64,000 nucleotides of DNA from assembly GCA_004299235.1 (NCBI GenBank), contig SCQL01000031.1:248001-312000 (forward strand), in the 5' to 3' direction. The number at the start of each line of letters is the position of its first letter. Position 1 is the stretch's first letter. Position numbers and translations under genes: made by a program. Below, one piece after another: positions 24,187-38,470 of the stretch. Origin of the DNA: a bacterium (GTDB lineage: Bacteria > Chloroflexota > Dormibacteria > Dormibacterales > Dormibacteraceae). The notes below the pieces were generated by a model, which had not been told where the DNA came from, did no database searches, and saw only the letters and a program-made list of their open reading frames with translations.

Positions 24187-25320
24187 CTAAAGCCGTCGCA
24201 GGGCGAGCACCGTCACATCGTCGAAAAGCTCGCGATCTCGGGAGCCGTGGGCCAGGATGTCCACCATCTCCTGCGCCGTCTGGGCGCGGCGCGCCTCGTA
24301 AGGCAGCTGCACATCCTTGGTCGCCAGGTCCGGCCGCAGGTCGAGCAGTCCATCCGAGAACACGACCAGCGCATCGCCCCGGCTGAGCGTGGCCGTGCCG
24401 ACGGCGATCTGACTGTCTGGAAAGATGCCGATCGGCGCGCTCCGGTGGGGCAGCGTCTCCTGCCCGGTCGCACCTCGCAACAGCCTCGCGTGTCCGTGCC
24501 CCGCATCGACGTAGTGCAGCTCGCCGGTGCCCGGATCGAAAACGCCGTGGAAGACGGTCACGTAAGCGTGGTTGGCCTCCAACGCCGCGGCCATGACGTC
24601 AGCGGCCAGTTTGATGCCGGCGGCTATCTCCGCGACGCCGGCCGACCCGCGAAGGGCGGCACGCGCCGTCGCCATCATCAGGGCCGCCGGCAGGCCCTTG
24701 CCCATCACGTCGCCGAGAGTGAAGGTGAGGAGGCCCGGGCTGGGGCGGTACCAGTCGTAGAAGTCGCCGCTGATCTCGCGCGCCGCGGCGAAGTGCGCGG
24801 CCAGCTCAAACCCGTCCTCCTTGAAGGGGGATGGCGGCAGCATGCCCGACTGCAGCTCGGCTGCGCGCCGCATCTGCTCGGCGCGCTCGCCGACCATCGA
24901 TTCGAGGCGCTTCAGGTTGGCGCGATAGTCGAGCTCGAGGCTGCGACGGCGCAGCGCGTTGACCACGGCGAGGTACAGCTCCGTCGTACCGACCGGCTTG
25001 ACCAGGTAGGCGTAGGCTCCATGCTCGAGGGCGGCCCTGCCCAGTTCGGGATCGTCGACGCCCGTGATCATCACGACCGCGGTGTCCGGACACCGGCGGC
25101 GCACCTCTTCCAGCAGCCCATACCCGGATTCGTCGGGCAGTCGCACGTCGAGGAGGGCGAGGGCGTAGTCGGCGGCCTCGAAGCGCTGCCGAGCTTGCGC
25201 GGCCGTCAGCGCGATGTCGGATTCGAACCCGCGGCTGCGCAGCATGCGCGCCACGACCTTCGCCAGGGGCTCCTCATCGTCGACTATGAGCAGGCGCTGG
25301 GCCGCGGGTGGAGCGCTCAC
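24187..25320 (-). CDS. Response regulator receiver fused to PP2C/SpoIIE-type phosphatase
   Basis: This is a RsbU-like partner-switch phosphatase under direct receiver control. Receiver domain at ~5-125: LIVDDEEP, phosphoacceptor ALLDVRLPDESG, LVKPVG. A short coiled linker with LQSGMLPPSP leads to the SpoIIE/PP2C domain with metal Asp in REISGDFYDW and LGDVMGKGLPAALMMA, and further DAGHGHARL and FSDGLLDLR. It would dephosphorylate a STAS protein, presumably the one encoded divergently at 25394. The start is GTG 25320. ATG 25362 is an alternative, neither with a clear ribosome site. Confidence 0.92.
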   Translation of the reverse strand: MSAPPAAQRLLIVDDEEPLAKVVARMLRSRGFESDIALTAAQARQRFEAADYALALLDVRLPDESGYGLLEEVRRRCPDTAVVMITGVDDPELGRAALEHGAYAYLVKPVGTTELYLAVVNALRRRSLELDYRANLKRLESMVGERAEQMRRAAELQSGMLPPSPFKEDGFELAAHFAAAREISGDFYDWYRPSPGLLTFTLGDVMGKGLPAALMMATARAALRGSAGVAEIAAGIKLAADVMAAALEANHAYVTVFHGVFDPGTGELHYVDAGHGHARLLRGATGQETLPHRSAPIGIFPDSQIAVGTATLSRGDALVVFSDGLLDLRPDLATKDVQLPYEARRAQTAQEMVDILAHGSRDRELFDDVTVLALRRL

Positions 25321-25393
25321 GCCCGTGCAGTGTAGAGGCCACAATCCCGGAGCCCGTGCCATATAGTCTTTGCCGGTATATGGGAGACCCACG

Positions 25394-25735
25394 GTGAGCC
25401 TGGAGGTGCAGAGCCGGCAGGCCGACAACGGCGTGACGGTGATCGCGCCGACCGGTCGCCTGGACGTCGCCGGGGCTCCGACGTTGAAAGACGCGATCAG
25501 CGAGGCCGTCAGAAACGGCCAGCCGCGCTTGGTCATCGACATGGAAGGCGTGAGCTTTGTCGACAGCACGGGCCTCGGCTCGGTGATCGCCGCGTTGAAG
25601 CAGGTGCGCGGCTCCAAGGGCGATCTCCGGCTCGCGGCTCCTAACCAGCAGGTGAGGGTGGTCCTGGAGCTGACCACGCTCGACCGCGTGTTCCCGTACT
25701 ACGCCACGGTCGAGGACGCCCTCGCTGGATTCTGA
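25394..25735 (+). CDS. STAS-domain anti-anti-sigma factor (RsbV/SpoIIAA-like)
   Basis: A 113-residue anti-sigma-factor antagonist. Core motif DMEGVSFVDSTGLGSVIAA carries the conserved phosphorylatable Ser in DST. GTG 25394 was chosen because GGGAGA lies 6-7 bases upstream. It is divergent from the REC-PP2C phosphatase and followed after 16 bases by its likely partner, an RsbW-type kinase. Together they form a partner-switching module controlling an unknown sigma factor or target, which is not in the window. Confidence 0.93.
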   Translation: MSLEVQSRQADNGVTVIAPTGRLDVAGAPTLKDAISEAVRNGQPRLVIDMEGVSFVDSTGLGSVIAALKQVRGSKGDLRLAAPNQQVRVVLELTTLDRVFPYYATVEDALAGF

Positions 25736-25751: not shown

Positions 25752-26159
25752 GTGAAGTCATTTGAATTCCACGCCACCCTCAGCCGTCTGGACGAAGGAT
25801 TGGAAACGCTGCACCGGTCGATCGATCGGATGCGCGAAGTCTCCGGCCGGGCGGCCGACGACCGCAGTCTCATGCTCTTCGAGACCGCGCTCGCCGAGAT
25901 CGGCGCCAACGTGCTCACCCACGGCCTGCCCGCGGGCACCGAGCATCCGGTGGAATACGTCCTCCGCCTCGATCAGGGCACCGCGCTCGCTTCGTTCATC
26001 GATCGAGGGCCGCCCGTTCATAATCACCACACTCGCGCCATGCCGGCGCCGTCGAGCGAGGCGGGGCGTGGCCTCGCGATCGCGCGCTCGCTGCTCGACG
26101 AGCTGGGCTATCAGCGCGACGGCGAGATGAACAGATGGCAACTGGTCAAGCGGCTGTGA
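25752..26159 (+). CDS. Anti-sigma factor / serine kinase of the RsbW type (HATPase_c)
   Basis: This 135-residue GHKL ATPase has an N-box ETALAEIGANVLTHG, a G1-like DRGPP and a G2-like GRGLAIAR. In the partner switch it phosphorylates the STAS protein and sequesters a target when the STAS protein is phosphorylated. The start is GTG 25752. The gene overlaps the next frame by 25 bases. Confidence 0.9.
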   Translation: MKSFEFHATLSRLDEGLETLHRSIDRMREVSGRAADDRSLMLFETALAEIGANVLTHGLPAGTEHPVEYVLRLDQGTALASFIDRGPPVHNHHTRAMPAPSSEAGRGLAIARSLLDELGYQRDGEMNRWQLVKRL

Positions 26160-26395
26160 ACGCCGGCGACGGGCACTCGGAGGACGAGGGTCGAGTCCTC
26201 ATCCACGACCTCCGCAACCTGCTCGCCGTCATCGTCAACTACAGCGAGCTGATCGCTGAAGAGACCGACGACCCCGACGCCGTGCGCGCCGACATCTTCG
26301 AGATCAAGACCGCTGCCGAGCGCGCCATCGCGCTCACCGACAACTTCCCACGCCCGGGCACGGGCGCGCTCGAGCCGCCAGCGAGCGCGACGTGA
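26135..26395 (+). CDS. Stand-alone HisKA-like phosphoacceptor segment without ATPase domain
   Basis: The 86-residue protein resembles only the dimerisation/phosphoacceptor helix pair of histidine kinases: LIHDLRNLLAVIVNYSELI, with the His-Asp-x-x-Asn pattern, then a second helix VRADIFEIKTAAERAIALT. No catalytic ATP-binding domain follows, since the next gene starts with a 4-base overlap. It could be phosphorylated in trans (for example by the RsbW-like protein encoded next to it) or serve as an oligomeric scaffold for the REC-GGDEF protein. The resemblance is seen; the role is inference. Confidence 0.65.
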   Translation: MATGQAAVNAGDGHSEDEGRVLIHDLRNLLAVIVNYSELIAEETDDPDAVRADIFEIKTAAERAIALTDNFPRPGTGALEPPASAT

Positions 26396-27405
26396 CCGTA
26401 GCGAGAAGGGTGGAGCCTGACAGCGAAGCCACTCCCCGAGTCTCACCGACACACCACGACGTCGTGCTCGTGGTCGATGACGACGAGCAGGTGTTGCGGC
26501 TGGTCAAGCGAGTGCTGGAGCGTGCCGGCTTTGAGTGCGTGCCGGTGGCGGACGGACAGGCCGCACACGACGCGGCGGTGGCATGGCGACCGGACATCAT
26601 CCTCCTCGACCTGATGCTCGGTGCAACCACCGGGGATCAGATCCTGACCGAACTGCGGGGCGACTTTCGCACCCGCCTGATACCGGTCGTCTTCCTGACC
26701 GTGCGCGCGTCGCTCAAGGACAAGGTGGAGCATCTGCTCGCCGGCGCCGACGACTACGTCACCAAACCCTTCATCCCCGAAGAGCTCGTCGCCCGCCTCC
26801 GCGCAGTGATGAGCCGCTCGACCACCACCAGGGATTTGAACCCGCTCACCGGCATGAGCGGGAACAGCGACATCCTGCGAGAGATCAGCCGCCGCCTCGC
26901 CCAGCGCGAGCGGTTCGCCGTCCTGTATCCGGACATCGACGCGTTCAAGAGCTATAACGACCACTACGGGTTTCTGCGCGGCGACGACGTGATCAAGTCG
27001 CTGGCGACGATCATCCTCGAGGTGCTCGAGGAGAACTACTCGCCGCAGCATTTCGCCGGACACGTCGGCGGCGACGACTTCGTGATCCTCACCGATCCCG
27101 GTCTCGCGGAGTCGATCGCGGCCGAGGTCACCAGCCGCTTCGACGCCGCCGTGCCTGCCCTGTACGACCCGCAGGACCGCGAACGCGGCTGGATCGAGTT
27201 CGAGGAGCGCACCGGCAACAAGGTGCGCACGGCGCTGGTGTCGCTATCGATCGGCATCGTGATCGCCGAGCCCGGCAGCTACAACAGCGCCGCGGCGCTC
27301 GCCTCTCGCGCGGCCGAGGTCAAGGGCGTCGCCAAGCGCATGCCGGGCTCGAAATGGGTGTTGGACCGCCGCCGTGCGCCGGAGCGCCTGGGGAACGAGC
27401 GTTGA
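26392..27405 (+). CDS. Response regulator with diguanylate-cyclase-like GGDEF domain
   Basis: 337 residues. Receiver domain ~20-140: LVVDDDEQ, phosphoacceptor IILLDLMLG, VTKPF. GGDEF domain ~155-325: DIDAFKSYNDHYG (metal Asp and substrate residues present) and active-site loop GGDDF, an accepted variant of GG[DE][DE]F. An RxxD inhibitory site was not seen in front of it. It may make cyclic di-GMP in response to phosphorylation. The GTG start at 26392 overlaps the HisKA-like frame by 4 bases, and the gene is 91 bases upstream of the giant Tad-cyclase gene. Confidence 0.9.
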   Translation: MTVARRVEPDSEATPRVSPTHHDVVLVVDDDEQVLRLVKRVLERAGFECVPVADGQAAHDAAVAWRPDIILLDLMLGATTGDQILTELRGDFRTRLIPVVFLTVRASLKDKVEHLLAGADDYVTKPFIPEELVARLRAVMSRSTTTRDLNPLTGMSGNSDILREISRRLAQRERFAVLYPDIDAFKSYNDHYGFLRGDDVIKSLATIILEVLEENYSPQHFAGHVGGDDFVILTDPGLAESIAAEVTSRFDAAVPALYDPQDRERGWIEFEERTGNKVRTALVSLSIGIVIAEPGSYNSAAALASRAAEVKGVAKRMPGSKWVLDRRRAPERLGNER

Positions 27406-27496
27406 CCTGCATAAGGCGATTGAGCCGCGCCAGGCCGGTGCTAGCATCCGGGCGAGTAACGGCCGTGAACCTGCGCACGCCGGCGGAAGGCTCCCC

Positions 27497-30400
27497 GTGA
27501 GCGAGGTCAGGACCGCCTGGTCCGAAAATCCCGAACGCACGCCGGCGGGGATCCCGGCACAGCCGGCGAGCGGCGTCGAAGCGGATCGCCCTCCGCGCGT
27601 GAAGGTCTCGGTCCACCGTCTCGATGGCGGCCTGGAAGAGGGAGAATCCGACGCTCGCACCCTCACCGTCGACGGGTACCCCATGTACACCCCCGGGGAC
27701 GGGGAGCGCCCGCGCTGGATCCCGGCTCACGACATCAAGTACGTGGTCCTCGGCTCGGTCGACGACCCCAGCCTCGAACCGGACCCCGGCGACAGGAGCA
27801 CGGCCAGAAAGGCCATCCTGCGGTTCCGCGACGGCGAGTGGATCGCTGCGTACATCGACCCCGGACAGCCGCCGAACGGCACCGGTGTGGCGGTCAAGAT
27901 CCGCCTGACCGAGCGCCAGAGGTTGATCCCCGCCATCGCGGCTTCGAGTGCGCTGCTGGAGATGCAGTTCGTCGACATGTGGGCGACGACCACGGACTCC
28001 GCGCCGCCCCAGAGGCGCCGCTCGGACATCATGGAAGCAGCCGCGAGACAGGGTAGAGACCTGAACAAGCTCGCCAACGATTTTCGCGACCGCCTGGCTC
28101 TCATTCGGGACGTCGGGCTGACCACCGGCGACACGCTCGCGTTCTCGCGCTCGGTGCGCACGCACCTCGACCGCTTCCTCACCGAAGATGGCATCGACCT
28201 CAGCTCGCAGGAGAAGTCGGCGCTCGCGGACATCATCCTGCGGGCCGCCGTCGGCTACGGACCTCTCGACGGCCTTCTCCACGACCGCTCCGTGAGCGAG
28301 ATCATGGTCAACGGCCCCGACCAGGTCTTCATCGAGCGTCGCGGCGTGCTCACCAAAGCCGAGGTTCGGTTCGAGGACGAGAACCAGCTCCTCGAGACGA
28401 TCCGCCGAATGGTCGCGACCACCGGCCGGCACATCGATGGACTGAACCCGATGGTGGACGCACGCCTGCCGGACGGCAGCCGTGTCAACGCGATCATCCG
28501 GCCGGCCGCGATCCACGGCGCGGCCCTGACCATTCGCAAGTTCAAGGACGCGGTGCTCGGGATGGAGGACCTCACCCGGGAGGGCAGCCTGAGCCCCGCG
28601 ATGGCCGAGTTCCTCCAGGCCGCCGTGCTCGGCCGCATGAACATCCTGGTGTCGGGCGGCACCGGCTCGGGCAAGACGACGAGCCTGAACGTCATCGCGC
28701 GCTTCATCCCTCACAACCAGCGCGTGATCACGATCGAGGATGCCGCCGAGCTGCAGATCGACCACCCGCACGTCATCGCGCTCGAGCACCGCCCGCCCAA
28801 CGTCGAGGGCAAGGGCGAGCTGACCATCCGCCAGCTGCTTCGCAACAGCCTCCGGATGCGACCCGACCGCATCCTGGTGGGCGAGGTTCGCGGCGCGGAG
28901 GCCCTCGACATGCTCCAGGCGATGAACACCGGCCATGACGGCAGCATGTCGACCATCCACTCGAACTCGGCTCGGGACGCTCTCTCCCGCCTGGAGACGA
29001 TGGTGATGATGGCCTCGATCGACATTCCGTTCGAAGCGGTGCGCGCGCAGATCGCGTCCGCGGTCAACCTCATCGTCCATCAGGCCCGCATGCCTGACGG
29101 CCGGCGCAAGATCGCCCAGATTGCCGAGGTGGTCGGCTACGACGCCAACGGCGCGATCCTGCGCGACATCTTCCTGCTCGGCATGGGGTCTGACCTGCGG
29201 CTCGAATACAACGCCACCGGGTACGTCCCGACTTCGCTCGACAAGGCCGCGTTCTACGGCGTCCAGGTGAACCAGAACCTGTTCGACCCGGTCACGGCAC
29301 GTTTCGTGCCGGCGGGCTCGGACAGCATGATGCCGGTGGTCAAGGACCCGCTCATGAGCGGGCAGCAGCGGACCGAGAACGTGGTCCGCCAAGTCGTGGT
29401 CGTGCCCTTCAGCTCCGACCGTCCCGGCGTGCAGCAGCAGCAGTCACACGCGGTGCAGTCCTCGTCTGGAGCGCCGAGCTCGACCATGGCTTCGACGCCG
29501 GAGATGCAGGAGGAGATGCGCAAGCTCATCGACGCCGCGCGGTCGGCCGTCGCGGACCTCCAGGCGGCCGCCCCGGTCCCTCCGCCCGAAGCCCCGCCGG
29601 CGCCGGTGATCCCCAGCGCTCCGACCGCCCCAACCGCGCCCGCGCCGCCGGCGGCCGCCGGCCAGCCACCCGCGCCGGCACCCGCTGTGACGTCCTTCCC
29701 GCAAGCGCCTCCCGCGCCCGGCCCGGAAACGGCGTTCCAGGCCAGCCAGGCGCTGCAGGCCGCCACGGCGATGGCCCGCGCCACGACCGCGCTCGGTCAG
29801 CTGGCCGCCGCCTCCGGCGGCTATGTCGGCATGCTGCCGACCATCCGCGCCGAAGGCACGACCCCGGCCGGAGCGACCCGCCGCATCCAGGCGGTGATCG
29901 AGAGCCTGATCACGCGCCGGAACCTCAACCTGCGCCTGGCCCCCGCGATCACCCAGGCGTTCGAAGGCGCCGAGCTGAAGGCGAGCGACTACGCGGCCGA
30001 CACCCGGATCAGCAAGGAATCGGCCGGCCGCGAACTCCGGCAGGCGGTGGAGGCCGGACTGCTGCAAACCATCCGGTACCCGCAGGGTGAGGCCGGCTTC
30101 CGCGCCGGGCAGGACCTTTTGAGGGCGGTAGCGGAAGGGCTCGGCCAGACCGTGAGCGCGGCCACTCCGCTGACGCCGGAAACGATCATCGGCAGCCTCG
30201 CCGTCGGCCAGACCGAAGGCACGGTGACGATCATGTTCACCGACGTCGAGGAATCCACGCGCCTGCTGTCGACTCGTGGCTTCACCGAGTCGCACGAGAT
30301 CATGAAGGCATACGAGACGATCATCGACGACAAGATCGCCGAGCACGCGGGCCGGCGCATCAAAGGCCTCGGTGACGGCTACATGATCAGCTTCGGGTCG

Positions 30401-32338
30401 AGCCGCCACGGCGTCGAGTGCGCGCTCGACATCCAGAGATCGATCGCCGAATACAGCAAGCAGAACCCGGAGCGGAAGATCCGGATCCGGATCGGCATCA
30501 ACACCGGTGAGGTCGTCGAGGAGGCCGGCGACATCTTCGGCGCCGCCGTCAACGTCGCCGCACGGGTGGCGGGCAAGGCAAGGGGCGGAGAGATCCTCGT
30601 TTCCGATGTCGTGCGCCAGCTCGTGGGCCCGGTCGCCGAAATGAAGTTTGATTACCGCGGGCGCTACAGGCTCAAGGGGTTTCCCGACCGGTGGCGACTG
30701 CACCAGGTGACGCCGGTCGCGGTGCGAGAAGAGCGACGCGCGCTGCCCACGGGCGACGGTTTCGTCGACCGCGATCAGGAACGGCTCGACATCCGCATGG
30801 TGCTCGACCGCGCGGCGACGGGATCCGGTGGCACGGTGTTCATCACTGGGGCCCCTGGGATCGGCGCTTCGCGGCTCGCCTCAGAGGTGGCCGGCGAAGC
30901 GGCCGGCAAGGGCTGGCTGGTGCTGAGCGGCCGCTGTGCGGAGCAGGATGGCGCGCCGTACGGGCCGTTCCGCGAAGTCCTCGCCGAGGCGGTGGCCCAT
31001 TCGACGGCCAAGACGCTTCAGGAGGCCGCCGGTCATAGCGGTCCGCTGCTGGCGTACCTGGCGCCCGGCCTGCGCCAGAAGGCGCGCGGCATGCCGGCCG
31101 GCAGCGATGTCCCCGCTGACCAGCTGCGGGAGCAGCTGTTCCGCGCCGTCTTCGAATTCCTGACCGGCGTGCAGGGCTCCAAGCCGCTGCTCATCGTCCT
31201 CGACGACCTGCACTGGGCTGACGAGGCCACGGTGCTGCTCCTGCGTGACCTGGCAGAGCGCGTGGGCGGGAGCCACATGGTCATCGCGGGAACGTACTGG
31301 GACGGCGAGCTCGATTCGGCGCGACCCTTCGGCACCGTGCTGTCACGCCTCCTGCGCCGCCGCCGCGGACAGCGAGTCGTGCTCGGCCGCCTCTCCGACC
31401 GAGCTGTCGAAAAGATCCTGGCCGGGATGTCGGATACACCGTTGACTCCAGTGCAGCTCTTGGGCATCCAGGCGGCCACCGAGGGCAACCCGCTGTTCGT
31501 CGAGCATGCCTTCCTCTACATGGCCGAGTCGGAGAGCATGCTCGGTGGCGGCTCTCGCACGCAGGCCAGCTTTACCGAGGAGGACCTGGAGCTGGCTCAG
31601 AGCGTGCGCGGCCTCATCGGCCGCCGGCTCGAACGCCTCAGCGAGCCCGCGCAGAGAATGCTGGTGGCCGCGGCGGTCGTGGGACGTGATTTCGACATCG
31701 CGCTGCTGGAAGCCTTCGGCGAGCTCTCGGGCCATGAGCTTCGTGACGCGCTCGACGAGGCGACGCGCGGGCACTTCCTCACCGCCGCGGCAACCGACAA
31801 GTACCGCTTTGCCCACGACCTGGTGCGGCAGCGGGTGCTGGCGGTGCTGCCCCTGCCCCGGCTGCAGGCCTACCACCTCGCGGTGGCCGACATGCTCGAG
31901 CGTGTCTATGGCAGGAGCGCCAACGAGCGGGCCGCCGAGATCGGCTACCACCTGTACCAGGCGGGCACCGCGGCCGATCCCCTGCGAACCTCGACGTTCC
32001 TGGCCCAGGCGACCAGGAACGCCCTCGCGGTGGGCGCGTTCGAAGAGGTCCTCCGCCTGACCGAAAGGACCCTGCCCCTGCTCCCAGGAGACAGGACTCG
32101 CGAGCGAGCGGAAGCCCTCGCCACACGCGCGCAAGCGTTCTGGGGACTGGGCCGCATCGACGATGCCAAGGCGTCGTGGCAAGGCGCGGCCCAGCGGTAC
32201 GAGGAGCTGGGCGACGCCAGGGCCGCGGCCGCGATCGACGAGCGGCTCGGGCGTCTCGATACCGGCCACGCCGGATCAGCGCATCAGGAGCCGGAGGCGG
32301 CCGAGACCCGGGAGGCCGGCGCCTCGGAACCGATCTAG
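27497..32338 (+). CDS. Giant fusion: CpaF/TadA pilus ATPase + class III nucleotide cyclase + STAND-like ATPase
   Basis: One uninterrupted frame of about 1613 residues combines a Tad-pilus motor with a signalling enzyme. In order: residues ~34-170, an uncharacterised N-terminal domain. ~200-560, CpaF/TadA ATPase with Walker A GGTGSGKTT (Lys393), ITIEDAAELQI, ILVGEVRGAEALDM and the STIHSNSARDALSRLE segment. ~655-750, Pro/Ala-rich linker. ~770-880, winged-helix-like region. ~905-1075, class III cyclase with metal Asp916 (FTDVEEST), Asp960 (GLGDGY) and transition-state VNVAARV. ~1085-1350, STAND/MalT-like ATPase with Walker B LLIVLDDLHWAD but Ala1124 in place of the Walker A lysine (GAPGIGASR). 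Then helical repeats. GTG 27497 has GGAAGG 7 bases upstream; an upstream ATG at 27374 would overlap the previous gene. It faces the tadG-like gene with overlapping stops (CTAG). Confidence 0.93.
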   Translation: MSEVRTAWSENPERTPAGIPAQPASGVEADRPPRVKVSVHRLDGGLEEGESDARTLTVDGYPMYTPGDGERPRWIPAHDIKYVVLGSVDDPSLEPDPGDRSTARKAILRFRDGEWIAAYIDPGQPPNGTGVAVKIRLTERQRLIPAIAASSALLEMQFVDMWATTTDSAPPQRRRSDIMEAAARQGRDLNKLANDFRDRLALIRDVGLTTGDTLAFSRSVRTHLDRFLTEDGIDLSSQEKSALADIILRAAVGYGPLDGLLHDRSVSEIMVNGPDQVFIERRGVLTKAEVRFEDENQLLETIRRMVATTGRHIDGLNPMVDARLPDGSRVNAIIRPAAIHGAALTIRKFKDAVLGMEDLTREGSLSPAMAEFLQAAVLGRMNILVSGGTGSGKTTSLNVIARFIPHNQRVITIEDAAELQIDHPHVIALEHRPPNVEGKGELTIRQLLRNSLRMRPDRILVGEVRGAEALDMLQAMNTGHDGSMSTIHSNSARDALSRLETMVMMASIDIPFEAVRAQIASAVNLIVHQARMPDGRRKIAQIAEVVGYDANGAILRDIFLLGMGSDLRLEYNATGYVPTSLDKAAFYGVQVNQNLFDPVTARFVPAGSDSMMPVVKDPLMSGQQRTENVVRQVVVVPFSSDRPGVQQQQSHAVQSSSGAPSSTMASTPEMQEEMRKLIDAARSAVADLQAAAPVPPPEAPPAPVIPSAPTAPTAPAPPAAAGQPPAPAPAVTSFPQAPPAPGPETAFQASQALQAATAMARATTALGQLAAASGGYVGMLPTIRAEGTTPAGATRRIQAVIESLITRRNLNLRLAPAITQAFEGAELKASDYAADTRISKESAGRELRQAVEAGLLQTIRYPQGEAGFRAGQDLLRAVAEGLGQTVSAATPLTPETIIGSLAVGQTEGTVTIMFTDVEESTRLLSTRGFTESHEIMKAYETIIDDKIAEHAGRRIKGLGDGYMISFGSSRHGVECALDIQRSIAEYSKQNPERKIRIRIGINTGEVVEEAGDIFGAAVNVAARVAGKARGGEILVSDVVRQLVGPVAEMKFDYRGRYRLKGFPDRWRLHQVTPVAVREERRALPTGDGFVDRDQERLDIRMVLDRAATGSGGTVFITGAPGIGASRLASEVAGEAAGKGWLVLSGRCAEQDGAPYGPFREVLAEAVAHSTAKTLQEAAGHSGPLLAYLAPGLRQKARGMPAGSDVPADQLREQLFRAVFEFLTGVQGSKPLLIVLDDLHWADEATVLLLRDLAERVGGSHMVIAGTYWDGELDSARPFGTVLSRLLRRRRGQRVVLGRLSDRAVEKILAGMSDTPLTPVQLLGIQAATEGNPLFVEHAFLYMAESESMLGGGSRTQASFTEEDLELAQSVRGLIGRRLERLSEPAQRMLVAAAVVGRDFDIALLEAFGELSGHELRDALDEATRGHFLTAAATDKYRFAHDLVRQRVLAVLPLPRLQAYHLAVADMLERVYGRSANERAAEIGYHLYQAGTAADPLRTSTFLAQATRNALAVGAFEEVLRLTERTLPLLPGDRTRERAEALATRAQAFWGLGRIDDAKASWQGAAQRYEELGDARAAAAIDERLGRLDTGHAGSAHQEPEAAETREAGASEPI

Positions 32339-34308
32339 TTGATCAGCTGAGTCGCGGGCGGGACCGGCGCAAAAGCGGTGCTGAAGATGATGTTCGGCAG
32401 CTGCCCGTTGAAGGTGATGGTGTCCGCGATGATGCCCCCCGTGTCGTCGGTGCGGAAGGCGGCGGCTTTCTGCACCGTCAGCGCGGCGGAAGGGACGTAG
32501 ATGACGCCGATGAACGCCGAGTCGCTGAAGGCCGCCAGGCTGTTGCTGCAGGTGTTGGCGGGCGGATAAGCGGCACCCGGTTCATAGATCACCATCCAGT
32601 TGTACTGATACCCGCTGAAGACAAAGTTGTCGCCGCTCGTCGTGGCGCTAAGGCAGCCCCCGCTCGGGATGTAGAAGGCCACCGCCCCAGGGGTGATACC
32701 GGTCGGGCAGGTCGCGAGCGCGCCGCCGGCGGCGTCGCACTGGTCTTCGTTCGCCCGGTCGCCGGCGGGCGGCGCCGCCCGGTCGGGGTTCTGATTGGGC
32801 AGGTTGTTCTTCAGCGGGCCGGTCTCGCTGCTGGGTGGATAGGCTCCGAACGTGTCCGGCGGCGCAAGTGGGTTGGGGGCGAAGAGCGGCGTGAGGACGG
32901 TGGAGTCGAAGATGGCGGTCTCGTTGCCGAGGCTGCACCCGCTTCCGCTGTAGGCGGGACAACCCCCGGTGGCGTCGTTCCTGACGCTGCCGGCGACAGG
33001 GATGCTGCCCGCGAATCCGAACGGCCCCGCGCACCCGCTGGACGGGGGCGCCAGGTAGACGTCGTACGAGGTCGCGCCGGGCACATTGCTGACCCGGATC
33101 TGCAGTGCCTGGCCATTGCCGGCGTTCGCCGTCTGGCAGTAGGACGGCGCGCTCTCCCGCCTGTAGCTCGTTCCGTTGTAGGTGTCACTGCGCACCGAGG
33201 TCACCTCAATCGCCCAGGCGCCCTTGCTGATCGGATTGCCGGTGCTGATCGTGCTGAGCTGATAGGAGCCGGCGCAGTTGGCGCCGTCGGAGTTCCAGAA
33301 CTGGTGTGTCGCCATTTTCGTGTTGTCAGAAGCCTTTGGCTCGGCGGGCGGCTTCAGCTGATTGCTGACGAAGTCCCCGTTGTTCGTGTATCCACCAAGC
33401 CATTTGTAGACCCCGGCGCTCAGGAAATAGCAGACGCCGGAGCTGAGGTTGGGATTGGCCGCATAGATGCCAGGCGAAAGGACCACGTCGCTGCCCGGCG
33501 CGCCCTGGCTGCCGGCGGCCACTGGCGGCGGCGGATAGCCGGGGTCGACCAGGTTGTAACCGGTTCGGGTGGCGCCCGCGACATCCGGGTACGTGCACGG
33601 GGGGAAGGCGCCGCTCGGGTAGCACGTGATGCTCACCGCGCCCGGGACGGCGGTTTGGCAGCGGGCATAGATGTCGCCCGCCACCTGAAGGCCGCCCCCG
33701 GTGACGCTGATCGCCCCATTCGAGACGACATCGCCCATGACCCCCAGCGTGCCGCCGCCGTTGATCAGGAGCGCGGTGCCGCCGGCCCCACCGCATCCAG
33801 CCTGGTTGAGGGCGGCGATCGTGGGTGTGTTGAGGAGATTGTTCACCCCTCCGCCCGCGGTCGCCGAGATCTTCGGGTTGGACCCGTCGGTGAGGATCCG
33901 TGCGAACTGGAGCTGCAGCGAGCGGGTCGCGGCCAGGGTGAACTGGCTGCCTCGCGGACCCAGTGACGCCACGACCTGCGTCAGCACCGTGCCGTCCGGG
34001 TACGTGCAGGTCAAATTGACGGGCGCGGGCCCCGGCGTGCCGTAGCCGGGCGAGCACGCGGGGACGCTGTAGAGGCGCATGTTCGTCCCGAAGATGGCGG
34101 TCGCCGCCTGCTCGGCCGACGTGTAGCTGCCTGTCTGCTGGAGCTTGTCTCCCGCGGCCAGGGCGGCCGCATCCACGGCCGCCTGCAGGTCTCGCCGCAG
34201 GGCATAAGCCCGCGCCCCGTCGATGGCGAGCGCGGCCATCCCGACGACCACCGCCAGCATGATGGCGATCAGGACGATGGCCTGTCCTTTCTGGAGGCGT
34301 TCGTCCAT
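32335..34308 (-). CDS. TadG-like pilus-assembly/secreted protein
   Basis: A 657-residue protein with the TadG N-terminus: QKGQAIVLIAIMLAVVVGMAALAIDG, one membrane segment, then the AYALRRDLQAAVDAAALAAGDKL helix. The large remainder is extracytoplasmic, Ser/Gly/Asn-rich with many Cys, and has a repeat-poor beta-rich look. ATG 34308 overlaps the preceding TadE-like stop (ATGA). In Tad systems TadE/TadF/TadG are pseudopilin-like surface components. The exported part is long compared with many TadG proteins. It lies last in the minus-strand group, tail to tail with the motor-cyclase gene. Confidence 0.85.
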   Translation of the reverse strand: MDERLQKGQAIVLIAIMLAVVVGMAALAIDGARAYALRRDLQAAVDAAALAAGDKLQQTGSYTSAEQAATAIFGTNMRLYSVPACSPGYGTPGPAPVNLTCTYPDGTVLTQVVASLGPRGSQFTLAATRSLQLQFARILTDGSNPKISATAGGGVNNLLNTPTIAALNQAGCGGAGGTALLINGGGTLGVMGDVVSNGAISVTGGGLQVAGDIYARCQTAVPGAVSITCYPSGAFPPCTYPDVAGATRTGYNLVDPGYPPPPVAAGSQGAPGSDVVLSPGIYAANPNLSSGVCYFLSAGVYKWLGGYTNNGDFVSNQLKPPAEPKASDNTKMATHQFWNSDGANCAGSYQLSTISTGNPISKGAWAIEVTSVRSDTYNGTSYRRESAPSYCQTANAGNGQALQIRVSNVPGATSYDVYLAPPSSGCAGPFGFAGSIPVAGSVRNDATGGCPAYSGSGCSLGNETAIFDSTVLTPLFAPNPLAPPDTFGAYPPSSETGPLKNNLPNQNPDRAAPPAGDRANEDQCDAAGGALATCPTGITPGAVAFYIPSGGCLSATTSGDNFVFSGYQYNWMVIYEPGAAYPPANTCSNSLAAFSDSAFIGVIYVPSAALTVQKAAAFRTDDTGGIIADTITFNGQLPNIIFSTAFAPVPPATQLIN

Positions 34309-34871
34309 CAGTACTCGGTCCTGAAGATCGCGGACGTGGTGATGACGATGTGGTCGGCCGTCGCCTGGGCGACGACCGGGGTGATCAGGATCAGATTGAA
34401 GCGCAGCGTCACCTGGAGCGGGGCGTGGCCGCCTGCCGGGTTCACGGCGCTGCACGGACCGCTGGCCGGCGCCGGGTACTCACCCCCGGGCGCGTTCGGC
34501 GGCGGCGTCGCCTCGACCGCGGCCGGCGGGTTGGGCTCGGTCACGTACAACCATGCGGCGTTGCCTGGTGGCGTGGCCGCGCCGAGCGGTCCCTGGGGGC
34601 AGGGTTCGGTCACGGGGGTGCCGATCAGCTGCGTCGTCACGGCGGCGAGGATGTCGGCGTTGGCCGGCAGCGGAATCGAGGCTCGCACCGCCGTCCGAGC
34701 GCCCTCGCGGACCGCGTGGTTGAGCGTGTCGTAGTAGAAGACCGCCCGCCCGATGTCGACGATGCCGAAGAGCAGGAGCAGCAGCACGGGCGAGATCAGG
34801 GCGAACTCGATGAGCGCCTGTGAGCTCTGAAGGCGCGGCCGAGGACCTGGGCCCTCGTTCGCGGCCCCCAC
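34308..34871 (-). CDS. TadE-like pseudopilin
   Basis: A 187-residue protein beginning, after a charged N-terminus, with the TadE signature QALIEFALISPVLLLLLFG followed by DIGRAVFYYDTLNHAVREGAR. One N-terminal membrane helix with the conserved Glu is seen. The rest is extracytoplasmic. GTG 34871 is chosen for the strong AGGAGG six bases or so upstream. Upstream sequence in the same frame is not family-like. It is 14 bases downstream of a second TadE-like gene. Confidence 0.88.
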   Translation of the reverse strand: MGAANEGPGPRPRLQSSQALIEFALISPVLLLLLFGIVDIGRAVFYYDTLNHAVREGARTAVRASIPLPANADILAAVTTQLIGTPVTEPCPQGPLGAATPPGNAAWLYVTEPNPPAAVEATPPPNAPGGEYPAPASGPCSAVNPAGGHAPLQVTLRFNLILITPVVAQATADHIVITTSAIFRTEY

Positions 34872-34885
34872 TCCTCGCCTCCTGG

Positions 34886-35464
34886 TCAACTGCCCTGCAC
34901 CGTCATGTGCTGGTTGGCGGCGATGCGGAAGATCCCGAACTGCGCCGTGACCAGAGGCGTCAGCGGCCCGTAGGCGTAGACCACGATCACGTTCAGGTCC
35001 AGCTGACCCTGATTGGTGGCCGGGCTGGTGAAGTCCAGGCCAGGCGTGTTGTTGTAGCAGATGTAAAGCCAGGGCTGGTTGGGGGTCGAGGGGTACGCGG
35101 AGTTGGCGTAGGGCGGGTTGCCGTACGCGTTGCCGTCCGTCGGGGCCGGGCACGTCGTACCGGGATTCTTCAGCACCGAGGCCGGCAGCGAGATGGTCGC
35201 CAGCTCCGCGTCCACCGCCGTCTTGATCGGGCTGTCGAACAGGTAGGGGTGGGATTGAGTGGGGGCGTCGAAAAAGACCCCGTGTCGAGCGCCCTCGCGC
35301 GCAGCGTTGGCAAGCGCCTCCGTCACGTAGATCGCGCGGCCGATGTCGACAAGGCCGCCGACGAGCAGGAGCAGCACCACCGACGAGAGCGCGAACTCGA
35401 CCAGAGACTGGCCGCGCTGGTGCTTTTTACGGAGTCTGAGGCTCACATAACGAGAGCGCGGCAC
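34886..35464 (-). CDS. TadE-like pseudopilin (second copy)
   Basis: A 192-residue protein with the TadE motif GQSLVEFALSSVVLLLLVGG and DIGRAIYVTEALANAAREGAR, and a secreted C-terminal region containing Cys residues. It is probably partner to the neighbouring TadE-like and TadG-like proteins as minor pilins. The start is either GTG 35464 or GTG 35446; neither has a clear ribosome site. It is divergent from the CpaB-like gene with only 29 bp between, so the two operons share a very compact promoter region. Confidence 0.87.
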   Translation of the reverse strand: MPRSRYVSLRLRKKHQRGQSLVEFALSSVVLLLLVGGLVDIGRAIYVTEALANAAREGARHGVFFDAPTQSHPYLFDSPIKTAVDAELATISLPASVLKNPGTTCPAPTDGNAYGNPPYANSAYPSTPNQPWLYICYNNTPGLDFTSPATNQGQLDLNVIVVYAYGPLTPLVTAQFGIFRIAANQHMTVQGS

Positions 35465-35493: not shown

Positions 35494-36270
35494 GTGCGCA
35501 CGACTCTGACCGGCCTGACGTCGCGGAGGCCGTTCACCCTCCTGGGCATTGTGCTGGCTTTGCTCGTGATCGCCGCCTTCGTCCTCGTCGCTCTCAACGC
35601 TGGGACGGCGTCCAGCAGTCCCCCTCTGACCGTGGTCGTGGCCGCCAAGGAACTCCCGCCCAGGCTGCCGATCGAAGCCGCTTCGCTGGAGCTGAAGGCC
35701 ATTCCGGTGCCGTTGGGCTATCCCAAGCTCTACTTCACCAAGATCCAGGACGTGCAGGGCATGATCCCGCTGGTCACCATCGTGCCGGGGCAGGCCGTGA
35801 CCTCCAGCGACGTCGCCAAGCCAAGCGAGGCACTGGGCTCGCAGTCGGCATACCTGCCGATCCCCGCCGGCTTTGTCGCACTGACCATTCCGACGAGCGA
35901 GCAGCAGGGCGTCGCCGACTATATCCAGCCTGATGACTACATCTCCGTGATCGCGACCGTCTCGTCCAGCGGCAAGGTCGCGTCGAAGACCATCTTCACC
36001 AACCTTCATGTGATCCGGGTTGGGATGCAGGCGAGCTCGGGCACGTCGGCCGCATCGACCGCAAGCAGCCTGACCGTGGTCGTGTCCGAGTGTCAGGCCG
36101 AGGTCATCACGTGGTTCCTGACCTACGCTTCCCTCAAGTACTCCCTGGAGTCGTTCCACGATTACCTCGGGCCCGGCAGCCAGACCCCGGATCCCGGGTG
36201 CCCGACGGTCACGGCCGCCAGGGGCGTGACCTTGCAGACCATACAGGCGGCTTACCCGTCGCTTTTCTAG
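35494..36270 (+). CDS. CpaB/RcpC-like pilus assembly protein (SAF domain)
   Basis: This 258-residue protein has an N-terminal membrane helix (FTLLGIVLALLVIAAFVLVAL) and a SAF-type domain beginning LTVVVAAKELPPRLPIEA, as in CpaB/RcpC of Tad systems. In didermic bacteria CpaB works with the CpaC secretin; no secretin was seen here. GTG 35494. It is followed one base later by tadB. Confidence 0.85.
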   Translation: MRTTLTGLTSRRPFTLLGIVLALLVIAAFVLVALNAGTASSSPPLTVVVAAKELPPRLPIEAASLELKAIPVPLGYPKLYFTKIQDVQGMIPLVTIVPGQAVTSSDVAKPSEALGSQSAYLPIPAGFVALTIPTSEQQGVADYIQPDDYISVIATVSSSGKVASKTIFTNLHVIRVGMQASSGTSAASTASSLTVVVSECQAEVITWFLTYASLKYSLESFHDYLGPGSQTPDPGCPTVTAARGVTLQTIQAAYPSLF

Positions 36271-36271
36271 G

Positions 36272-37219
36272 GTGATTGACCTGCCGCCGGCAGTCATCGT
36301 CGCTGTGCCCATGGCGGCGGCGATCGCGGTGTTCTTCTGGAGCCTCGACCGGATCCGCAAGGAACGCATCGCCCAGCCCTTGGAGCCCGCGCCGCCTCGA
36401 GCCACGCCGCGTGAGCTGGTCGAAAGGCTGTTGCGACCCGCCGCGGACAACCTGAGTCAGCGGCGCAGCATCCGCGGACGGCCGACGCTGATGGAGGACC
36501 TGGCTCGCGCCGGTTTGAACATCACGCCGCCCGAGTACCTGCTGGTCCGCATCGGATCGGTGGCACTCGGGGCGTTGATCGGCCTGTTCCGGTTTGGCTT
36601 CTCCATCGGTCCGATCGTGCTTGGGGTGATCGGGTTCGTGGCCCCGCCGCTGGTGATCTCGTTCCTTCAGCGGCGCCGGCAGGACATGTTCAACGACCAG
36701 CTGACCGGCATGTTGCAGCTGCTCTCGAACTCACTCAAGACGGGCTACGCGATCGACCGAGCGCTCGAGACCGTGGCGACCAAGTCCCAGCCTCCTGTTT
36801 CGACGGAGTTCGAGCGCGTCGCCACCGAGATCACGTTGGGCACCTCGGTCGAGGACGCGCTCAGCGCCCTGCTGCTGCGCATCAACAGCCCGGACCTGGA
36901 GTTCATCGTGACCGCGATCCTGCTTCACACCCGGGTCGGTGGCAACCTGGCCGAGGTCCTGGACAACATCTCGGACACACTCCGCGACCGCCTGCAGACC
37001 AAGCGTGACATGAGCGTGCTCACCGCCCAGTCGCGCGCCTCCGCGACCATCATCACCGGGCTGCCCATCCTCCTGGCCCTCGGCCTCTACGTGTTCGTCC
37101 CCGGCTACTTCGCGCCGATGACCGGCACCTTGCTCGGCTACGTCCTGCTCGGGATCGCGGGCTTCCTCATCCTGGTCGGCAACCTGCTGATACGCCGCAT
37201 GACCGCCCTGCAAGCGTGA
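36272..37219 (+). CDS. tadB: Tad pilus inner-membrane platform protein TadB
   Basis: A 315-residue T2SSF-domain platform protein. An N-terminal membrane segment, then the cytoplasmic helical domain with MLQLLSNSLKTGYAIDRALE and the F-domain motif LEFIVTAILLHTRVGGNLAEVLDNI, then two C-terminal membrane segments. It partners TadC and the CpaF-type motor. GTG 36272. Confidence 0.92.
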   Translation: MIDLPPAVIVAVPMAAAIAVFFWSLDRIRKERIAQPLEPAPPRATPRELVERLLRPAADNLSQRRSIRGRPTLMEDLARAGLNITPPEYLLVRIGSVALGALIGLFRFGFSIGPIVLGVIGFVAPPLVISFLQRRRQDMFNDQLTGMLQLLSNSLKTGYAIDRALETVATKSQPPVSTEFERVATEITLGTSVEDALSALLLRINSPDLEFIVTAILLHTRVGGNLAEVLDNISDTLRDRLQTKRDMSVLTAQSRASATIITGLPILLALGLYVFVPGYFAPMTGTLLGYVLLGIAGFLILVGNLLIRRMTALQA

Positions 37220-37235: not shown

Positions 37236-38120
37236 ATGTTCCTCATCGCGCTTTCCGCCGGTGTCATCTGCGGCGCCATCGTGGTGACGTACTTCGTCGC
37301 CCTCGACCAGAACCAGGCGGCCGCGGCGGCGACCAACGGTTCCTGGGCGGCGCCGGCGCCCAGGCAGACGCTGGTCAAACGGCTCGAATCACTGGTGCGG
37401 CCGTTCACCGCGCGCCTGCCGGCGCGAGCAGCAGGTCAGCTGCGCCAGAAGTTGAGCCGCGCCGGCGATCCGGGCGGCCTCACCCCAGCGGGATTCCAGG
37501 CCGTGCGGTACAGCCTTGCCGCCCTCGTCGCCATCGTCGGGCTCGGGACCGGTTTGCTGCTCCCGCTTCCGATTCCAACCCTGGTGCTGGCGCCGATCAC
37601 CGGCGCGGTCGCCGCTTTTCTCGGTTACGTGGCGCCGAGCCTGTGGCTCGAGCAGAGAATCGCCGAGCGCCGGCAGCAGGTCCAGCGCTCCCTGGCTGAG
37701 GCGACAGACCTGTTGACCCTGGTCGTCGAGTCGGGCATGAGCCTGGACGAAGGTCTGCTCAGCATCACGGAGCGGTTCCACAACGCTTTGGGAGATGAGA
37801 TTGGCAAGGTGCTGCGGGAGATACGGCTCGGCCGCCCCCGGATGAGCGCCTTGGAGCACATGGCCGAGGCCACCGGCGTTGGCGACCTGCATCACCTGGT
37901 CGAATCGATCGTCCAGTCAGACCAGATGGGGGTTCCGATCGCGCGACTCCTGAGGGTTCAGGCGACCGAGATGCGAAGACGCCAGCGCCAGACCGCGCAG
38001 GAGCGCGCGGCACAGGCGTCGTCGCGCATGGTGTTCCCGATGGTCGGATGCATCTTCCCGGTGCTGTGGATCGTCCTGCTCGGGCCGGCGATCATCCAGA
38101 TCCTGAAGTCCGTCCATTGA
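37236..38120 (+). CDS. tadC: Tad pilus inner-membrane platform protein TadC
   Basis: A 294-residue T2SSF-domain protein. N-terminal membrane segment, two central hydrophobic segments (~85-130), then the cytoplasmic domain with SLAEATDLLTLVVESGMSLDEGL, MAEATGVGDLHHLVESIVQSDQMGVPIARLLRVQ and a C-terminal membrane helix. It forms the platform with TadB. ATG 37236 has no Shine-Dalgarno; the bases before it are the CTAGTGCACTAG palindrome. The stop overlaps the MerR-like start by one base. Confidence 0.92.
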   Translation: MFLIALSAGVICGAIVVTYFVALDQNQAAAAATNGSWAAPAPRQTLVKRLESLVRPFTARLPARAAGQLRQKLSRAGDPGGLTPAGFQAVRYSLAALVAIVGLGTGLLLPLPIPTLVLAPITGAVAAFLGYVAPSLWLEQRIAERRQQVQRSLAEATDLLTLVVESGMSLDEGLLSITERFHNALGDEIGKVLREIRLGRPRMSALEHMAEATGVGDLHHLVESIVQSDQMGVPIARLLRVQATEMRRRQRQTAQERAAQASSRMVFPMVGCIFPVLWIVLLGPAIIQILKSVH

Positions 38121-38470
38121 TGAGCCACCGACTCGGGCCGCACGCCCCGCAACCGTCGTTCAACGATCTCGACAAGCCGCTGTACACGATCAGCGTCGCG
38201 GCCGAGATCCTCGAGACCCATCCACGCACGCTGATGCTCTACGAAGACGCGCACCTGATCGACCCGCATCGCACCAGCACGAACCGGCGCCGCTACTCAC
38301 AGCGGGACATCAGCAAGGTTCAGGTCATCCAGCACCTGACGCGCGAGAAGGGGGTCACGCTGGCGGGTGTGCGGCACATTCTGAGCCTGTTCGAAGTGAT
38401 GAAGAGTCACCGGGTGGAACCGCCGGCCGACCTGCGCGAAATCTTCGACCGGTACGCTCAGATCATCTAG
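38120..38470 (+). CDS. MerR-family regulator (HspR-like)
   Basis: A 116-residue MerR-type DNA-binding protein. The wing-helix N-terminus reads LYTISVAAEILETHPRTLMLYEDAHLIDP, then RRRYSQRDISKVQVIQHLTREKGVTLAGVRHIL. There is no metal-binding C-terminus. The pattern is close to HspR. It is translated directly after tadC (TGATG overlap), so it probably regulates the Tad locus or responds with it. Its TAG stop lies inside the CTAG end of the inverted-repeat element. Confidence 0.85.
   Translation: MSHRLGPHAPQPSFNDLDKPLYTISVAAEILETHPRTLMLYEDAHLIDPHRTSTNRRRYSQRDISKVQVIQHLTREKGVTLAGVRHILSLFEVMKSHRVEPPADLREIFDRYAQII

Follow-up and report, generated by a model that had tools for sequence, protein, structure and literature searches.

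A Tad pilus motor predicted to carry its own adenylate cyclase in uncultured Dormibacterota

Introduction

In Pseudomonas aeruginosa, PilT/PilU-Chp-CyaB surface sensing links the activity of a type IVa pilus motor to cAMP. Motor and cyclase are separate proteins in that pathway and, to our knowledge, in the other known systems, and the conversion of pilus motor work into a second messenger has yet to be explained. At the locus described here, in contrast, the two lie on one polypeptide and the pilus is of the Tad type.

The Tad motor CpaF is a hexamer of C2 symmetry, in which the C-terminal domains form the base of the ring (PMC11300603). A survey of 292 CpaF orthologues distinguished classes I–III, which are set apart solely by an IDR or FHA domain at the N-terminus (PMC12019362). 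Set against these classes, the fused protein has a DUF6982-like N-domain and, C-terminally, a winged helix, a cyclase and a pseudo-STAND module. Its cyclase shares the catalytic domain and the catalytic and base-recognition residues of Ma1120 from Mycobacterium avium (4wp3) and of LipJ/Rv1900c (1ybt), which, unlike the fused protein, are not joined to a pilus motor. The order of cyclase, AAA_16 and helical repeats is also that of cyclase-AAA_16 (STAND) proteins, including the TOMM kinase/cyclase fusions (TIGR03903); against that model the fused protein scores 141 bits (cut-off 705.75), and it differs in lacking a kinase domain, in the loss of the P-loop lysine and in being joined to CpaF. The component families are thus known, and what is new is their combination, together with a conserved regulatory cassette. 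A literature search, which scarcely covered subscription journals, returned no report of a CpaF-cyclase protein and nothing on Dormibacterota with Tad pili.

Results

Within the 64,000-nucleotide stretch analysed here (the window), a single plus-strand frame free of stops (27497–32338) runs from a GTG at 27497 to a stop codon at 32336–32338 and encodes 1,613 amino acids, arranged as N-domain, CpaF motor, linker, winged helix, class III cyclase and pseudo-STAND module. A Shine-Dalgarno-like GGAAGG (27485–27490, +) lies 6 nt ahead of the GTG, whose position matches the start site of the orthologues. Pfam profiles matched T2SSE at residues 254–529 (5e-67), Guanylate_cyc at 905–1064 (5.5e-23) and AAA_16 at 1089–1258 (5e-28), and sequence searches of the PDB returned CpaF (2e-100) and the M. 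avium adenylyl cyclase Ma1120 (2e-29). The open frame that a preliminary description of this DNA had read as joining a Tad motor to a cyclase was therefore confirmed, with every motif quoted there, and two domains absent from it were added: an N-terminal beta domain (residues ∼36–165) and a winged-helix-like domain (∼792–890). Motor and cyclase are almost certainly made as one translated protein.

The motor core (residues 226–600; 28172–29296, +) retains both the Walker A motif GGTGSGKTT and the Walker B motif VGEVRG, and the two are intact in all copies that span them except L059, a frameshifted MAG gene. CpaF structures in the PDB align over residues 224–590 (E about 1e-100), and the core at 226–590 aligns throughout with the CpaF/TadA structures 8rkd and 9e24 at the same E value, with all motifs in place. 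Walker motifs, Pfam T2SSE and PDB matches bear out the earlier view of an apparently intact CpaF/TadA ATPase, as does the presence of tadB, tadC, cpaB and tadE alongside. The best NCBIfam match, TIGR03819, is a model named for a single TadA subfamily ('hypoth_equivalog') that the fused protein matches at 326 bits, below the cut-off of 373, and we do not claim membership of that narrow family. Because the remaining Tad loci of the same genome each have a plain CpaF of their own, the fused protein is the sole motor of its locus, where its predicted role would be that of a hexamer that extends and retracts the pilus.

Preceding the motor is an all-beta domain (residues 36–165; 27602–27991, +; model pLDDT mostly 80–94) that is not part of the known CpaF classes and resembles DUF6982 weakly, with matches in 12 of 26 members (best E 0.003). 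Following it, a Pro/Ala-rich linker (residues about 640–785; 29414–29851, +) is in frame in every relative; measured over residues 640–791 in 18 full-length sequences, it varies between 148 and 187 amino acids with the frame always kept. The dN/dS ratio is 0.13–0.29 in the linker, 0.025–0.08 in the cyclase and about 0.01–0.05 in the motor, so that the value of the cyclase is close to the motor's own. Frame conservation across these lengths and the dN/dS of the linker indicate that it is translated between two constrained enzymes. The winged-helix-like domain (residues about 792–890; 29870–30166, +) occurs too in CpaF orthologues without a cyclase. The idea that it belongs to a cyclase family was rejected: cyclases whose matches reached upstream of the catalytic domain proved to lack it when inspected. 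PDB and Pfam searches with the winged helix and the N-domain gave nothing firm. An AlphaFold model of residues 792–1586 (mean pLDDT 60.5) rendered cyclase and STAND poorly and was usable for the winged helix only, where pLDDT was about 85.

Class III cyclases are active as dimers, for which two chains are needed. In the cyclase domain of the fused protein (residues 905–1075; 30209–30721, +) a single chain supplies every residue that a homodimeric cyclase demands: D916 and D960 for metal binding, K956 and D1012 for adenine recognition, and N1019 and R1023 for the transition state. All six are identical in 23 of 23 aligned copies, so the two metal aspartates noted previously and the Asn/Arg pair of the transition-state motif are invariant. 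Since the base-recognition lysine and aspartate are likewise present in every copy, an adenylate cyclase is predicted, and the domain very probably makes cAMP. Its closest solved relative is the adenylyl cyclase Ma1120. A donor gene was sought among the free cyclases of the class; these were at most about 40% identical and none lay beside Tad genes, so no donor was identified. The nearest, L147–L150, are 38–39% identical proteins of 280–300 amino acids with a common N-terminal domain of their own, encoded away from Tad genes.

The cyclase is followed by an AAA_16/STAND nucleotide-binding module (30761–31486, +) and a weakly supported helical (TPR/MalT-like) region (31487–32254, +). The P-loop of the window copy reads GAPGIGASR, with alanine where the Walker A lysine is expected, and this lysine is absent from all 23 copies (Ala in 17, Thr in 3, and Val, Met and Gly in one each), which follow the pattern GxPGIG(A/T/V/M/G)(S/T)R and all retain the first Walker B aspartate. 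The module thus matches the AAA_16 profile and keeps Walker B but lacks the Walker A consensus GxxxxGK[ST], whereas separate cyclase-AAA_16 proteins from the same genomes retain the P-loop lysine. Of the 'STAND-like ATPase' proposed previously, the STAND/AAA_16 assignment stands and the ATPase does not: an intact STAND ATPase is rejected, and the loss of the lysine in every copy leads us to describe this part as probably a non-hydrolysing pseudo-ATPase with a regulatory function.

Immediately upstream of the fused gene lie, in order, a response regulator-SpoIIE phosphatase (RsbU-like; 24187–25317, −), a STAS anti-anti-sigma-like protein that keeps the motif FVDSTGL (25370–25735, +), a HATPase_c_2 anti-sigma-type kinase (25752–26159, +) and a response regulator-GGDEF protein (26392–27405, +). 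All 22 fused loci with sufficient upstream sequence have this cassette, in the same order and orientation. The last gene has GGDDF in place of GG[DE]EF, identically in all relatives read, and its diguanylate cyclase activity is therefore uncertain. Downstream are genes for a TadG-like protein (32338–34320, −), the TadE pseudopilin (34311–34868, −), a second TadE-like pseudopilin (35012–35431, −), CpaB/RcpC (35494–36270, +), the T2SSF proteins TadB (36272–37219, +) and TadC (37236–38120, +), and a MerR-type regulator (38120–38470, +) that ends the conserved block; the arrangement recurs where the flank of other fused loci permits. The TadB, TadC, TadE and CpaB neighbours named in the preliminary description are all there, together with TadG, and the kinase/partner-switch/GGDEF cluster that it placed next to the locus proved strongly linked (22/22 fused loci, 0/3 short loci, see below). 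No Flp_Fap match for a pilin gene was found on the window's contig; Flp genes sit on contigs C27, C2 and C26. Many relatives (L038, L041–L043, L045, L050, L054, L055, L057 and others) have an extra plus-strand histidine kinase and response regulator upstream, between a minus-strand kinase and the SpoIIE-response regulator gene, a pair that the window is without. Two tandem TadG-like genes occur in L038:13374-17509, L050:13294-17283 and L056:10581-14105, and one in the window.

More than 20 species, uncultured soil bacteria of one family, encode the same domain order from motor to pseudo-STAND on one polypeptide, and full-length copies are present in other genera of that family. Whether the order recurs beside tadB and tadC had been left to homologues to decide, and it does so in many Dormibacterota species. 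When 84,980 species genomes were scanned, about two dozen copies came up, in Ca. Dormibacterota/Chloroflexi MAGs from several sampling projects; the scan used patterns derived from this subfamily and was the sole coverage of other phyla, so that independent CpaF-cyclase fusions there would escape it. The fusion was not seen in 20 genomes from three other families of the class, and of 61 genomes sampled across the phylum, none had a CpaF match in an open frame of more than 900 amino acids apart from that of the window.

Four short orthologues consist of N-domain, CpaF and linker and then end with the winged helix or a low-complexity tail; a stop is present in L066 and L067, and L065 and L069 reach or come near a contig end. 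A tree of CpaFs places the fused forms (92/95) as sister to the short forms (95/94), with other CpaFs outside. Upstream sequence was available for three short loci, and none of them has the partner-switch/GGDEF cassette. Since fused loci have the cassette and short loci are without it, cyclase/pseudo-STAND and cassette are co-inherited, either through a single gain in the fused clade or through loss in the short clade.

The genome encodes six cNMP-binding domains above the cut-off. One, of canonical type, forms the N-terminus of the CpaE/MinD-type ATPase P0002 (L093:1327-2634; G000:C28:12708-14012). Its phosphate cassette (FGEMALISEETRTASVRA) has the arginine in all 13 of the family's orthologues, whereas in CpaE paralogues encoded next to other Tad loci the cassette is degenerate and this arginine mostly lost. 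In the piliated Caulobacter machine, CpaE sits against the base of CpaF (PMC13170226). We tentatively regard P0002 as a candidate cAMP receptor, a plausible assignment but one less likely than not, and not a specific one, because its gene is far from and unlinked to the fused locus and this type of CpaE occurs too in G006 and in genomes with a cyclase-less CpaF; an exclusive pairing with the fusion is accordingly rejected. The literature search returned no CpaE with a cyclic nucleotide-binding domain.

Discussion

The retention of the fusion in more than 20 species suggests a possible direct link between pilus activity and signalling. The preliminary description extended such a link to surface sensing; that pilus assembly or contact with a surface alters cyclase activity is conjecture. 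As judged from sequence, the gene would encode a Tad-pilus motor (CpaF) that bears its own adenylate cyclase, with cyclase output tied to the state of the ring and the pseudo-STAND part as regulator, a combined reading that we hold with even confidence and doubt. Six fused chains would assemble into a ring of the usual CpaF kind, with six cyclase domains at its base, where neighbouring or opposite chains may pair into active homodimers, since class III cyclases work as dimers. Ring assembly or an ATP-driven change of shape could then determine how much cAMP is made. A binding-dependent regulator, either brake or trigger, would be provided by the pseudo-STAND/helical part, and the co-inherited partner switch and response regulator-GGDEF protein would serve as input. 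The cNMP-CpaE, placed at the CpaF base by analogy with Caulobacter, and CRP-like regulators would read the local cAMP. That cyclase output depends on motor state at all is, in our estimate, an evenly balanced proposition; mechanical coupling may be weak, because the linker is long and flexible. The most elaborate version, in which the ring is a cAMP synthase whose ATP-driven rearrangement opens and closes the cyclase dimers while a docked cNMP-CpaE reads the product in a feedback loop, we consider unlikely.

The long flexible linker also suits an alternative, namely that the fusion merely sites the cyclase at the pilus base, with the pseudo-STAND/helical module or partner proteins setting its activity and the motor cycle being irrelevant. 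In the same genomes, separate proteins commonly have the cyclase followed by AAA_16, which is the likely regulator there. However, every copy of the fused protein has a degenerate STAND P-loop, so that the usual nucleotide switch is probably lost, whereas one cyclase per subunit of a hexameric motor fits control by oligomerization; on balance we find this alternative somewhat unlikely. Decay of the P-loop raises the further question of whether catalysis was lost more widely, leaving a dead cyclase that serves as a structural dimerization domain. Six catalytic residues invariant in 23 of 23 copies and a dN/dS of 0.025–0.08 make this highly improbable.

Two further explanations concern the chain itself. 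It could be cut within the Pro/Ala linker, or an internal start could give a separate winged-helix/cyclase/STAND protein, as might be expected of a long, low-complexity stretch between halves that are independent modules. Yet linker lengths always keep the frame, the linker is under purifying selection and the winged helix is already found in cyclase-less CpaFs, and we judge such a division quite improbable. All genomes are draft MAGs, which would leave room for an artefact, either a chimeric assembly or two genes read through by chance, but several independent studies show the same junction, in more than 20 species altogether. A chimera is therefore rejected and the probability of either artefact is negligible; of the two outcomes that had been set against the fusion from the start, an assembly join and the lack of any homologue of the same architecture, neither was encountered.

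With motor and cyclase joined, a single purified protein could serve to ask whether motor state governs cAMP synthesis. The CpaF architectures would also gain a C-terminal enzymatic class, and the cNMP-CpaE would be a suggested receptor within the same machine. As a separate observation on CpaF architecture, two frames of 813 and 872 amino acids (G040:C166:512-2524 and G052:C293:8896-10908) each contain two tandem CpaF motor domains.
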